Part shown: positions 12,912-51,946 of the stretch, in pieces
Position numbering within the stretch: position 1 is the first letter of the stretch
Layout of the letters: the number at the start of each line of letters is the position of its first letter
Origin: Demequina sp. NBRC 110056
Lineage (GTDB): Bacteria > Actinomycetota > Actinomycetes > Actinomycetales > Demequinaceae
Length of the DNA: 64,000 bases
Assembly: GCF_002090155.1 (NCBI RefSeq)
Contig: NZ_BBRM01000002.1
Span: 62,001 to 126,000 of the forward strand
Direction: 5' to 3'
The notes under the pieces: model-generated
Seen by the model: only the letters and a program-made list of their open reading frames with translations
What the model was told of the DNA's origin: nothing
Databases searched by the model: none
Made by a program: the position numbers and the translations under genes

Positions 12912-13922
12912 TCAGCCGCCGATCGCGCTCATCGGCCGGTCGGGCTGCAGGAAGGCGGGGTCGTCGATGTCGTGGCCGGGGCGCTTGAGGCGCAGGCAGG
13001 CGGCGACGGCGTCGGCGAGCTCCTCGTCGGTGGCGCCGCCGCGCAGGAGGCCGCGCAGGTCGGACTCCTCGCGCGCGAACAGGCACGCGCGCAGCTGGCC
13101 GTCGGCGGTGAGGCGCACGCGGTCGCAGGTGCCGCAGAAGGGGGCGGTCACGGACGCGATGACCCCGACCGACGCGGCGGTGCCGGCGATGTCCCACACC
13201 CGGGCGGGAGCCGCGCCGCGGTCCGAGCGTTCGACCAGCGTCCACTCGGCCCGCAGCTGCGCGAGGATCTCCTCGCCGGTGACCATCTGCTGACGGTCCC
13301 AGGTGTGGCCGGCATCGAGCGGCATCTGCTCGATGAAGCGCATCTGGTAGCCGTGGTCGACGCAGAAGCGCGTGAGGTCGACGATCTCGTCGTCGTTCAC
13401 GCCGCGCATGGCCACCGCGTTGATCTTGATGGGCTCCATCCCGGACGCGTCTGCGGCGGTGATCCCGGCGAGCGTCTCGGTGAGCTTGTCGCGCCGGGTG
13501 AGCTCGTGGAAGCGCTCGCGGCGCAGGGTGTCGAGCGAGATGTTGACCCGCACGAGTCCCGCGTCGTGCAGCTGGTCCGCGAGCGCGGGCAGGCGCAGCG
13601 CATTGGTGGTGAGGGAGAGCTCGGGCCGCCCCGCGGGACCCTCGAGCCTCGCCAGACGCGACACCACGTCCACGACGTCGGCGCGCAGCAGCGGCTCGCC
13701 GCCCGTGAGGCGGATCTCGTCGATCCCCATCTCCACGGCGATGCGCGCGATCCGGACGATCTCGTCGGTCGACAGCATGGTGTCGCGTTGCAGCCACGGC
13801 ACGCCGTCGGCGGGCATGCAGTACGTGCAGCGCAGGGAGCAGCGGTCGGTGAGCGAGATGCGCAGGTCGCGGTGCTCGCGGCCGAAGCGGTCCGTGAGCC
13901 CGGGGTGCCGCGGCGCCGTCAC
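12912..13922 (-). CDS. moaA: GTP 3',8-cyclase MoaA (radical SAM)
   Basis: 336 aa. Converts GTP to 3',8-cyclo-GTP, the substrate of MoaC. The radical-SAM cluster CSLRCTYC (Cys28, 32, 35) is intact. The C-terminal second [4Fe-4S] site CGTCDRVRL...ACLF is also intact, as is the C-terminal Gly-Gly (SAIGG) that reaches the active site in this family. GTG 13922 overlaps the moaE stop as GTGA, forming a mogA-moaE-moaA operon. Confidence 0.96.
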   Translation of the reverse strand: MTAPRHPGLTDRFGREHRDLRISLTDRCSLRCTYCMPADGVPWLQRDTMLSTDEIVRIARIAVEMGIDEIRLTGGEPLLRADVVDVVSRLARLEGPAGRPELSLTTNALRLPALADQLHDAGLVRVNISLDTLRRERFHELTRRDKLTETLAGITAADASGMEPIKINAVAMRGVNDDEIVDLTRFCVDHGYQMRFIEQMPLDAGHTWDRQQMVTGEEILAQLRAEWTLVERSDRGAAPARVWDIAGTAASVGVIASVTAPFCGTCDRVRLTADGQLRACLFAREESDLRGLLRGGATDEELADAVAACLRLKRPGHDIDDPAFLQPDRPMSAIGG

Positions 13923-35027: not shown

Positions 35028-36224
35028 GTGACCCGGGCCTCGGCCGTCACCACGCCGATGCGCGACTTCGGCGTGTACATCCACGTCCCGTTCTGCGCGG
35101 TGCGGTGCGGGTACTGCGACTTCAACACGTACGCGCCGGGCGAGGGTGAGTTCTCCTCGCGCGACGACTACGTGGGCGCGGCACTCGCCGAGATGGGCCT
35201 CGCGCGCGAGTCCATGGTGGGTGACGGGCGCCCCGCGCGGACCGTCTTCTTCGGTGGCGGCACGCCGACCATGCTCGACGCGTCTGCGCTCGTCGCGATG
35301 CTCGACGGGGTGCGGGCGACCTGGGGCCTCGCCCCGGATGCCGAGGTGACCACCGAGGCGAATCCCGACTCGGTGACCCGCGAGTCGCTGGCGACGCTCG
35401 CGTCGGCGGGCTTCACGCGGGTCTCGTTCGGAATGCAGTCCGCCGTGCCGCACGTGCTCGCGACGCTCGAGCGCACCCATCGCCCGGAGAACGTCGCCAA
35501 GGCGGTCGCGTGGGCGCGTGAGGCCGGTCTCGCGGTGAGTCTCGACCTCATCTATGGCACGCCGGGAGAGACCCTCGAGGACTGGCACGCGTCGCTGGAC
35601 GCGGCCATCGCGCTCGCGCCCGACCATGTGAGCGCCTACGCCCTCGTCATCGAGCCGGGCACGAGGATGGGCCGCCAGCTGCGCTCCGGCGAGATCGAGC
35701 CTGTGGACCTCGATACCCAGGCGGACATGTACGAGGCGGCCGACGCGCGCCTCGCCGCGGCGGGCTACGCCTGGTACGAGGTGTCCAACTGGGCCAGGGT
35801 GCCCGAGCAGGAGTGCCGCCACAACGTCGCCTACTGGACGAGCCAGGACTGGTGGGGCGTGGGGCCGGGCGCCCACAGCTACCTCGGCCCGCGCATCGGC
35901 GCCGCGGGCGAGGAGGCGCCGGCCGAGCGCTGGTGGAACGTGAAGCTGCCGCGTGCCTACGCGGCGCGGCTGGCAGCGGGGGCGAGCCCGGCTGCGGAGC
36001 GGGAGCCGCTCGACGCGGACGACCTCGCTCTCGAGGCCGTGATGCTGCGGCTGCGCCTGGCGGACGGCATGCCGGTGGCGGACCTGCCCGCGCCGCGCCC
36101 CGAGGCGATCGCCGCGCTGGTCGGCGACGGCGTCCTCGACGGGAGGGCGGCGCTGGCTGGCCAGCTGAGGCTCACGTTGCGAGGCCGGCTCCTGGCCGAC
36201 GCCGCCGTGCGGGCGCTCACCTGA
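35028..36224 (+). CDS. hemW: Heme chaperone HemW (radical SAM)
   Basis: 398 aa. Radical-SAM protein once annotated as oxygen-independent coproporphyrinogen oxidase. The cluster motif is CAVRCGYCDF, without the extra cysteine of true HemN, which fits HemW, a heme-binding chaperone. GGGTPTML and SFGMQS are also present. GTG start lies 2 nt after the lepA stop; lepA-hemW-hrcA-dnaJ order is common in Actinomycetota. Confidence 0.93.
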   Translation: MTRASAVTTPMRDFGVYIHVPFCAVRCGYCDFNTYAPGEGEFSSRDDYVGAALAEMGLARESMVGDGRPARTVFFGGGTPTMLDASALVAMLDGVRATWGLAPDAEVTTEANPDSVTRESLATLASAGFTRVSFGMQSAVPHVLATLERTHRPENVAKAVAWAREAGLAVSLDLIYGTPGETLEDWHASLDAAIALAPDHVSAYALVIEPGTRMGRQLRSGEIEPVDLDTQADMYEAADARLAAAGYAWYEVSNWARVPEQECRHNVAYWTSQDWWGVGPGAHSYLGPRIGAAGEEAPAERWWNVKLPRAYAARLAAGASPAAEREPLDADDLALEAVMLRLRLADGMPVADLPAPRPEAIAALVGDGVLDGRAALAGQLRLTLRGRLLADAAVRALT

Positions 36225-36243: not shown

Positions 36244-36391
36244 CTGGGTTCGTGTAGACGTCGCCCATCCTGAGGCCGCGCCGGCGCGCAGCGCGTCGAT
36301 GCGGGTTCTGGTCCGCGTCACCTGACGAACCCGCATCCACACGCAGGAGTCATCGAGCGCCCGCGTGTGGGCGACGTCTACACGAACTCAG
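36244..36391. repeat. Nested palindromic element, copy 1 (~148 bp)
   Basis: Outer arms 36248-36267 and 36368-36387 are perfect 20-bp inverted copies (GTTCGTGTAGACGTCGCCCA type), extendable 4 bp outward with one G-T pair. Inside is an 11-bp hairpin, GATGCGGGTTC/GAACCCGCATC (36298-36308, 36327-36337). A further pair, CCACACGC/GCGTGTGG (36337-36344, 36363-36370), could form an alternative fold. It lies between the convergent hemW and DUF4870 stops. Shares end and inner-hairpin sequences with 51753-51906. Confidence 0.85.
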
Positions 36392-36403
36392 GGGGAAGAG
36401 TCG

Positions 36404-36859
36404 TCAGCGGACGAACGGGATGATGAGCGGCACCTTGTAGTACTGGCCGCCGTGCGCCTTGACGCCCGCGACGATCGAGATGATCAGCGCGTACAGCGCG
36501 TAGAGGCCCCACAGCGGCAGCGTCACGAACAGGCCGACGCCCAGCAGCAGCAGCCCCACGATGAAGGCGGCCGCGCCGGACACGAGCACGGTGATCTGGA
36601 GGTTGAGGTTCTGCTTGCCGTGGAAGTCGACCAGCGCGCTGCGCTCGCGGTAGATGAGCCACAGCACGAGGGGCACGACGAAGCCGAGGAAGCCTGCGCT
36701 CAGCACCATCGCGCCCGCTGCCACGACGTGGATCAGCATGGACCACATGCGGGCCTCGGACTCGAGCATCGGCTGCGGCGCGTACGGCTGCTGGGGGGCG
36801 GGCTGGACCGGCGCGGTCGGCGCGTGCTGCTCGTGCTGCGGGGACGTGTTCTCGCTCAT
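36404..36859 (-). CDS. DUF4870 membrane protein, paralogue 1
   Basis: 151 aa. Gln/Pro-rich soluble N-terminus (~40 aa), then three to four membrane segments with VLWLIYRERSALVDFHGKQNLN, the DUF4870 (Tic20-like) signature, and a conserved C-terminal YKVPLIIPFVR. Function unknown. It is separated from the next paralogue by a terminator and so has its own promoter. Confidence 0.88.
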   Translation of the reverse strand: MSENTSPQHEQHAPTAPVQPAPQQPYAPQPMLESEARMWSMLIHVVAAGAMVLSAGFLGFVVPLVLWLIYRERSALVDFHGKQNLNLQITVLVSGAAAFIVGLLLLGVGLFVTLPLWGLYALYALIISIVAGVKAHGGQYYKVPLIIPFVR

Positions 36860-36883
36860 GGCTCAAGAGTCCCAGACATGCCG

Positions 36884-36921
36884 AGGGCCCGTCATCGGCC
36901 ACACGACCGATGACGGGCCCT
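36884..36921 (-). terminator. Rho-independent-type hairpin between DUF4870 genes
   Basis: Perfect 15-bp inverted arms (36884-36898 and 36907-36921) with an 8-nt loop, 30 nt past the stop of DUF4870 paralogue 2 and upstream of paralogue 1. Confidence 0.85.
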
Positions 36922-36950
36922 GAGCGTCGTCAGGGAAGCGCCTCAGGGGG

Positions 36951-37361
36951 TCACTTCACCAGGCGCAGCGCGAACGGGTAGCGGTAGCGCTGGTGCTTGT
37001 TCGCCGCCATGCCTCCCATGATCTGGAACACGAGGGCGACCACCCACACGAGGAACGGCAGGAAGAACAGGATGCCGAACGTCACGGCCATGAGGATGTA
37101 AGAGACGACGTACGCGATCGCGACCGTGATGTTGAAGTTCAGCGCCTCCTTGCCCTGGTCGTTGAGGAAGTCGGAGCGCTCCTTGTAGATCAGCCAGAAG
37201 ATCAGCGGGCCGAAGAGGCCGATGAGGATCGCGGACAGGTGGGTCAGGAGACCCATCGTGCGCTCGTCGGACTCCGAGACGGGCGCCGGACCGGCTCCCG
37301 CGGGCTGAGGGTTCGACGGCTGCTCGGGAGGAGGCGGGGGCATCGTGCTGTCGTCAGTCAT
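36951..37361 (-). CDS. DUF4870 membrane protein, paralogue 2
   Basis: 136 aa. Proline-rich N-terminus, then LLTHLSAILIGLFGPLIFWLIYKERSD-type DUF4870 core with membrane segments and a C-terminal RYRYPFALRLVK. Same architecture as its neighbours. Its start overlaps the end of paralogue 3 by 8 nt, so the two are co-transcribed. Confidence 0.88.
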   Translation of the reverse strand: MTDDSTMPPPPPEQPSNPQPAGAGPAPVSESDERTMGLLTHLSAILIGLFGPLIFWLIYKERSDFLNDQGKEALNFNITVAIAYVVSYILMAVTFGILFFLPFLVWVVALVFQIMGGMAANKHQRYRYPFALRLVK

Positions 37362-37710
37362 GTTCTCTCACCACTTTGATGTCGTAGGGATATGACGCTG
37401 GCAAGCCACCCCGCACAGCGCGGAAGGCCTGGTAGCACAGGACGACCGCAACAATGAGGACTGCCAACTGTGCCAATGTACCGACAAAGGCCACCAACGG
37501 CACGAACATCCTCACGAGCGAGGCGACCACGAGGATCGCCAGCACGAGCATCCCGAAGTTCACCGCCTTCGCGGACTCCCGTGCGACCCAGGGGTCGTCG
37601 CGGCGGCGCGCGAGCCACACCACGAGAGGGATGATCGGGCCCACGACGGCGCCCAGGTGGGCGATGCCGGCCATGGTCGAGTCGACCTGCTCGTGCGATG
37701 CGTACGTCAT
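37354..37710 (-). CDS. DUF4870 membrane protein, paralogue 3
   Basis: 118 aa, the shortest and most divergent of the three: it lacks the proline-rich N-terminus, and WLARRRDDPWVARESAKAVNF replaces the usual core. Ends SYPYDIKVVREHD. First gene of the pair 3-2. Function unknown. Faces away from the CIRCE-hrcA promoter. Confidence 0.82.
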   Translation of the reverse strand: MTYASHEQVDSTMAGIAHLGAVVGPIIPLVVWLARRRDDPWVARESAKAVNFGMLVLAILVVASLVRMFVPLVAFVGTLAQLAVLIVAVVLCYQAFRAVRGGLPASYPYDIKVVREHD

Positions 37711-51752: not shown

Positions 51753-51906
51753 GGGTTCGTGTAGGTCTCGCCCACATTCGGCCCCCTCGGGCGCCGAGCG
51801 TGTCGATCAGGGTTCGCCGCCTCGTGCCTTCTCCCACGGCGCCGAACCCACACTGACACGCCAGAGGCCAGGCATGCCCGAATGTGGGCGAGACCTACAC
51901 GAACCC
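51753..51906. repeat. Nested palindromic element, copy 2 (154 bp)
   Basis: Perfect 29-bp inverted arms (51753-51781, 51878-51906) start GGGTTCGTGTAGGTCTCGCC. Inside are GGGTTCG/CGAACCC (51810-51816, 51843-51849) and CGTGTC/GACACG (51799-51804, 51855-51860). The ends, the GTCGAT-NN-GGGTTC block and the mirrored layout match the element at 36244-36391. It lies between recO and uppS, which are in tandem. Confidence 0.87.
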
Positions 51907-51946
51907 GGGAGGGGAACGAGGTTCGGCGCGGGATAGGGTGACCAGC

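Follow-up and report, generated by a model that had tools for sequence, protein, structure and literature searches.

In REPIN/RAYT systems (REPtrons), the REP sequences, which are GTAG-tagged short palindromes, occur as dispersed intergenic singlets and inverted doublets, the cognate gene is bracketed by the same repeats, the repeat sequence co-diverges with the enzyme, and no homologue is found in plasmid or phage collections (PMC3116915, PMC8266576). The enzyme, RAYT, is a HUH tyrosine transposase, as are the TIRYT enzymes of the TIRtrons; a TIRYT gene is enclosed by long terminal inverted repeats specific to it, and some of these repeats make up dispersed families (PMC3733652). AbiEi-family proteins have an N-terminal winged helix and bind 23-bp repeats, their sites being inverted repeats 3 bp apart (PMC7319586). 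MITEs are gene-less intergenic elements of about 150 bp with inverted ends and with empty sites. In the IR/DR transposons (Tc1/mariner, e.g. Sleeping Beauty), each inverted end contains two direct-repeat binding sites at a much wider spacing than in the units described below, the transposase is of the DDE type and the target duplication is TA.

The two palindromes described here lie in a 64,000-nucleotide stretch of DNA (the window) and are probably gene-less, REPIN-like doublets of a two-part unit, which would form a system with a cognate nuclease gene on contig C5 (276-277 kb). As in REPIN/RAYT systems, the units are dispersed between genes as singlets and inverted doublets, the same units bracket a cognate gene, their sequence co-diverges with the enzyme, and homologues of the protein were found in none of the collections of plasmids, phages or viral contigs searched. 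In contrast, the protein joins an AbiEi-like region to a PD-(D/E)XK domain, single units are not hairpins and carry boxes in direct repeat 41 bp apart, and the family has 19 copies in this genome. Membership of REPIN/RAYT itself was rejected, as the defining HUH transposase is absent and single units do not form hairpins; the best reading is a REPIN/RAYT-like system with a PD-(D/E)XK protein in place of the HUH transposase, in which the window palindromes are non-autonomous. TIRtrons share the placement of the enzyme gene within long gene-specific inverted repeats, some of them forming dispersed families, and differ in the same way in the enzyme. The two direct-repeat sites in each inverted end recall IR/DR transposons, but neither a DDE transposase, nor a TA duplication, nor wide spacing was seen here. 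All the MITE features listed above are present; unlike MITEs, however, these elements show no visible target duplication, the only gene seen linked to them is not a known transposase, and they occur as solos as commonly as doublets. In four of six proteins the N-terminal region is recognised as AbiEi, whereas the direct repeats 41 bp apart, the fused nuclease, the mirrored sites before and after the gene and the lack of an AbiEii toxin partner between the units at the C5 locus set the system apart from AbiEi antitoxins and autoregulators.

The window palindromes and their 61-bp unit

The initial annotation placed a nested palindrome with 20-bp outer arms at 36244-36391 (copy 1), with ends and centre in common with 51753-51906 (copy 2). 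The coordinates are correct and the palindrome is real, with a strong fold, although its outer arms measure 24 bp, with one G.U pair (fold z -6.8); copy 2 has 29-bp arms (fold z -11.4), and in both cases 0 of 200 shuffles were equal or better. The end motif TTCGTGTAGNNNTCGCCCA has four exact matches in the window, all within these two palindromes, and no shuffle reaches the real match count when up to three mismatches are allowed. Each palindrome consists of two head-to-head copies of a 61-bp unit (61-64 bp as matched), and what had been described as an inner GGGTTC/GAACCC hairpin nested within outer arms is the pairing of box A with box A (outer) and of box B with box B (inner) between two inverted units. 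A unit model built from sequence only matches the left and right units of copy 1 (36246-36308, + strand; 36326-36389, - strand) and of copy 2 (51753-51816, + strand; 51843-51907, - strand), each with E <= 2e-13. The parts of both copies and the neighbours of copy 1, whose gene names were read from the letters alone, are the following:

35028-36224, + strand: hemW-like gene, left neighbour of copy 1, convergent, outside the element
36248-36268, + strand: copy 1, box A of the left unit (GTTCGTGTAGACGTCGCCCAT), by the unit model
36269-36289, + strand: copy 1, variable spacer of the left unit
36290-36308, + strand: copy 1, box B of the left unit, with GGGTTC at its end
36309-36326, no strand: copy 1, inter-unit gap of 18 bp
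36327-36345, - strand: copy 1, box B of the right unit, by the unit model
36346-36366, - strand: copy 1, variable spacer of the right unit
36367-36387, - strand: copy 1, box A of the right unit, by the unit model
36388-36400, no strand: copy 1, purine-rich outer flank (C-rich in unit orientation), common to most units
36404-36859, - strand: DUF4870-like membrane protein gene, right neighbour of copy 1, outside the element
51755-51775, + strand: copy 2, box A of the left unit (GTTCGTGTAGGTCTCGCCCAC), by the unit model
51797-51815, + strand: copy 2, box B of the left unit, by the unit model
51816-51843, no strand: copy 2, inter-unit gap of 28 bp
51844-51862, - strand: copy 2, box B of the right unit, by the unit model
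51884-51904, - strand: copy 2, box A of the right unit, by the unit model

Positions 36404-37710 of the window hold a tandem of three small membrane-protein genes of similar type, all on the minus strand.

The unit reads GTTCGTGTAGacgTCGCCCACat, about 20 variable bases and CTGCGTGTcgatcaGGGTTC. The conserved parts are box A (unit positions 1-23) and box B (37-61), whereas the spacer is variable, mean pairwise identity being 0.85 in the boxes, 0.39 in the spacer and 0.29 in the flanks; spacer length is constant in all units but one. The boxes contain direct repeats exactly 41 bp apart (score 5.2-6.2 vs a median of 2.2-2.3), the only spacing that stands out between 30 and 55. A C-rich stretch precedes most units, and most copies of box A contain a GTAG, with no consistent hairpin after it. 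Inverted pairs have gaps of 18, 28, 8 and 27 bp, plus 17 bp in a relative (window copies, L119, L123, L218); these five values lie near multiples of 9-10 bp, a periodicity that would allow proteins to contact the DNA from one side of the helix.

A search for further copies of the palindrome family had been proposed, and in the genome of the window (G000, 2.94 Mb) it returned 19 units, E values rising abruptly after the last of them, from 2e-9 to a background of 6e-3. Eight of the units are arranged as four tight inverted pairs (window copies 1 and 2, C3:158.6 kb and C5:150.0 kb), nine are solos, and two make up an inverted pair around a gene, with 1.07 kb between them (C5:276180-277255). All of them are intergenic, at most overlapping the last codons of a gene, in convergent, tandem and divergent gene neighbourhoods. 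A regulon was considered and discarded, the genes next to units having no evident common function. All nine solos (contigs C2-C5), and three solos of the related genome G027, lie on the + strand of their contigs; in both genomes GC skew is too weak for assigning leading strands, and a replication-strand preference was not obtained. Conservation is 56.6 bits in doublets vs 52.9 bits in solos (p = 0.14), a difference too slight to establish the better conservation of doublets that is seen in REPINs. Because the boxes are conserved while the spacers are nearly randomised, the present copies are taken to be old and under constraint rather than recent. This is compatible with functional units that move slowly or with binding sites that have a role in the host.

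Two further repeat families were observed in the same genome. One is a dispersed short palindrome, TGGAAGGCACTGAGTGCCG ... CGGCACTCAGTGCCTTCCA, found as singles and close inverted pairs (L031:698-720 and 1743-1795; L280:12349-12367 and 12942-12960; L119:12616-12666), of which one copy adjoins another nuclease gene of the AbiEi-like/PD-(D/E)XK kind. The other, a third unit family, flanks another nuclease gene and has at least one copy on contig C10 (L037:1270-1345, 1370-1445 and 2578-2593; L328:1000-1031).

The initial annotation left open whether the palindromes are a small non-autonomous mobile element or a structured RNA. A structured RNA, or a bidirectional terminator where genes end, would agree with the strong hairpin formed by the doublets and with the position of copy 1 between convergent genes, but single units fold no more stably than their shuffles (mean z about -0.4 to 0.2), nine units are stemless solos, and both window sites are empty in congeners. 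Rfam gave no match for the palindromes, terminator scans found no intrinsic terminator and no U-tract, and the spacers neither pair nor co-vary across the two halves, column covariation being negative. Hairpins in the variable spacer, convincing by eye, failed the shuffle test. Since single units are without fold signal and the spacers without co-variation, the hairpin is interpreted as arising incidentally from two mirrored sites in the DNA and not as an RNA structure, and the RNA explanation is extremely unlikely. The mobile half of the original suggestion is supported by the 19 units, the empty sites and the bracketed gene.

The bracketed nuclease gene and its homologues in the genus

The gene between the C5 units encodes a protein of about 308 residues, in which an AbiEi-like DNA-binding N-terminal region (residues about 30-180, by PADLOC AbiEi models) is fused to a C-terminal Vsr-like PD-(D/E)XK domain, the protein thus having both halves that define this class. 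The AbiEi models match with E values of 1e-5 to 1e-8 in the four of six proteins mentioned above. A domain scan assigns the C-terminus to DUF559/MTES_1575, and MTES_1575_REase has been named as a Vsr-family domain (PMC3710099); the residues E-D-ExD-H-D-R are invariant in the nuclease proteins. Titles and abstracts of open-licence papers did not tie DUF559/MTES_1575 to mobility or dispersed repeats. The C5 gene is the only bracketed gene seen among the 19 units. An associated transposase had been thought worth looking for, and the gene linked to the units belongs instead to the PD-(D/E)XK family, which is not a known transposase family; Y1_Tnp (PF01797), the sole transposase family searched, had 0 matches over the whole genome, with positive controls detected. 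The genes on either side of the block are 53-93 bp apart in G032, G030, G016 and G015, vs 1,153 bp in G000, and therefore the whole unit-gene-unit block (about 1.15 kb) is absent from these four congeners.

The same architecture, with different sequences, surrounds many homologous nuclease genes. Among 40 of them, the best direct-repeat spacing in a flank is 41 or 42 bp in 28, and 41 bp is the only clear spacing peak, with a mean score of 15.4 vs about 8-10 at other spacings. Inverted flanks scoring at least 15 are present in 22 of the 40, each with its own sequence, as compared with 1 of 100 control genes, which show no peak at 41; about half of the nuclease genes are without a strong flanking inverted repeat. 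Flanks of the 41-bp type are exemplified by G022 (L266, 65-bp repeat), G025 (L276), G026 (L278), G016 (L267), G024 (L268), G002 (L247), G021 (L255) and G007 (L248, 42 bp). Proteins that are more alike tend to have flanks that are more alike (Mantel rho 0.38, 0 of 999 permutations), a correlation confounded by orthology and shared ancestry, and the 40 loci are not all independent, orthologous thrB-linked genes being partly inherited in place. A minority of nuclease genes has a second type of end, consisting of nearly perfect inverted flanks of 55-62 bp with their own hairpin and no 41-bp direct repeat (L034:656-714 and 1734-1788 in G000; L321 in G032, on both sides of the nuclease gene).

It could be argued that the units are operators, the AbiEi-like protein being an autoregulator or the regulator of a small regulon, with a nuclease that serves in defence and dispersed units that are regulatory. 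AbiEi proteins do autoregulate through repeats in their own promoter (PMC7319586), the boxes are strongly conserved while the spacers drift, and a constant 41-bp spacing suits cooperative binding. Nevertheless, inverted units stand downstream as well as upstream of nuclease genes, the dispersed units often lie between convergent genes or at the 3' ends of genes that share no common function, and congeners that retain the neighbouring genes have no element at either window locus, so that this explanation is rather unlikely.

The C5 gene occupies a thrB-linked intergenic place at which other congeners carry a homologous gene surrounded by inverted repeats of different sequence. A homologous nuclease gene is present there in G001, G031, G027, G002, G007 and G018 and absent in other species; the place is either a hotspot or the scene of repeated loss. 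Several nuclease genes at one place across species would also be expected of a homing-type gene, whose nuclease cuts unit-bearing or empty alleles and which spreads by gene conversion, the dispersed units being off-target or relic sites. Some homing endonucleases have Vsr-like folds. Homing alone, however, leaves the units and doublets at many non-allelic loci and the mirrored architecture unexplained, and is very improbable.

In G027, of which a sample of 400 kb (about 15% of the genome) was covered, the window architecture is independently repeated with unrelated sequences. The unit of nuclease gene L265 recurs as the three solos already mentioned (L299:19711, L304:12941 and L309:5875), with 17-18 of 20 positions of box A and, at +41, 14-16 of 20 positions of box B, and that of nuclease gene L246 is found again, between convergent genes, as an inverted pair without a gene (L311:8634-8913). 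The outer flanks of L265 and L246 hold long C-rich tandem repeats, with periods of 46 and 48 bp, directly outside the units.

Empty sites and diverged units in relatives

In comparisons with one genome per species, the 150 bp are missing from congeners at both window loci, with the genes on either side in place, which gives the empty sites that a mobile element predicts; they are too diverged for fixing the insertion boundary. Inspected by eye for target duplications, the four doublets showed none that was consistent. A strict unit model found no match in 58 relatives, and the exact left-end pattern gave single, chance-looking matches in the genome collection, which together gave the impression of a family confined to one species. 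This was overturned by a sensitive scan, in which diverged cognate units appeared at other loci as one inverted pair in G061 and five solos in G015. Where counted, these units keep the 44-nt distance from GTAGA to GATC seen in G000, and the boxes co-diverge between species, from CGTGTAGACG/CGTGTCGATC in G000 to TGGGTAGATG/TGGGGAGATC in G015 and G061, a joint change that is expected if one protein reads both boxes. No cognate gene was found beside the G015 and G061 units, and the one G061 nuclease gene examined carries a different unit. Nothing else convincing was found in 396 genomes of the order, where two marginal matches were inspected. Matches to GTAGANNTCGCCCAC in other congeners were not accepted as units, most of them looking like coding sequence.

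MITEs typically have long inverted repeats with two sub-sites at their ends, exist as gene-less derivatives and leave empty sites. The palindromes could be MITEs of this ordinary sort, derived from an insertion sequence whose transposase, DDE or of another known family, is lost or undetected, the nuclease gene being mere cargo. This is distinctly unlikely, given that many species have members of one and the same gene family between their units, with a different unit sequence each time, that no other element with these ends occurs among the 19 units, and that the genome has no Y1 transposase, the only transposase family searched.

A candidate mobilising enzyme

The units are associated with nuclease genes, and we infer that the protein mobilises them by binding the boxes, cutting and driving movement. 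In the proposed mechanism, by analogy with AbiEi proteins on repeats of about 23 bp, the N-terminal AbiEi-like part most likely binds boxes A and B, and the protein would bring two units together. The nuclease domain would then cut DNA at or near the outer unit ends, and the doublets, together with the gene-carrying form, may spread to new intergenic sites through the nuclease and probably host repair, leaving solos as presumed remnants or one-ended products. Counting against this model are the absence of visible target duplication, the age of the present copies, the G015 and G061 units with no cognate gene found beside them, and the nuclease genes, about half, that have no strong flanks. A PD-(D/E)XK nuclease alone is not known to carry out strand transfer, and the way in which such a protein could mobilise DNA becomes a concrete question.

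It can tentatively be proposed that actinobacterial AbiEi-PD-(D/E)XK (DUF559/MTES_1575) proteins are previously unrecognised mobilising enzymes, each of which reads its own pair of direct-repeat boxes, spaced by 41 bp, in the inverted ends. Such an enzyme would move or copy the element that carries its gene and distribute gene-less doublets and solos over the genome, with no DDE, HUH, tyrosine or serine transposase involved. If this is true, a whole family of genes annotated only as 'DUF559' or 'AbiEi family' would be given a biological function open to testing, and such systems could be sought in any genome by a simple rule, the presence of inverted flanks with a 41-bp direct repeat. It would also explain orphan palindromic repeats of high-GC actinobacteria, and would mean that the REPIN/RAYT lifestyle, in which an enzyme kept by the host is accompanied by its own short repeats, has evolved at least twice, with unrelated enzymes.
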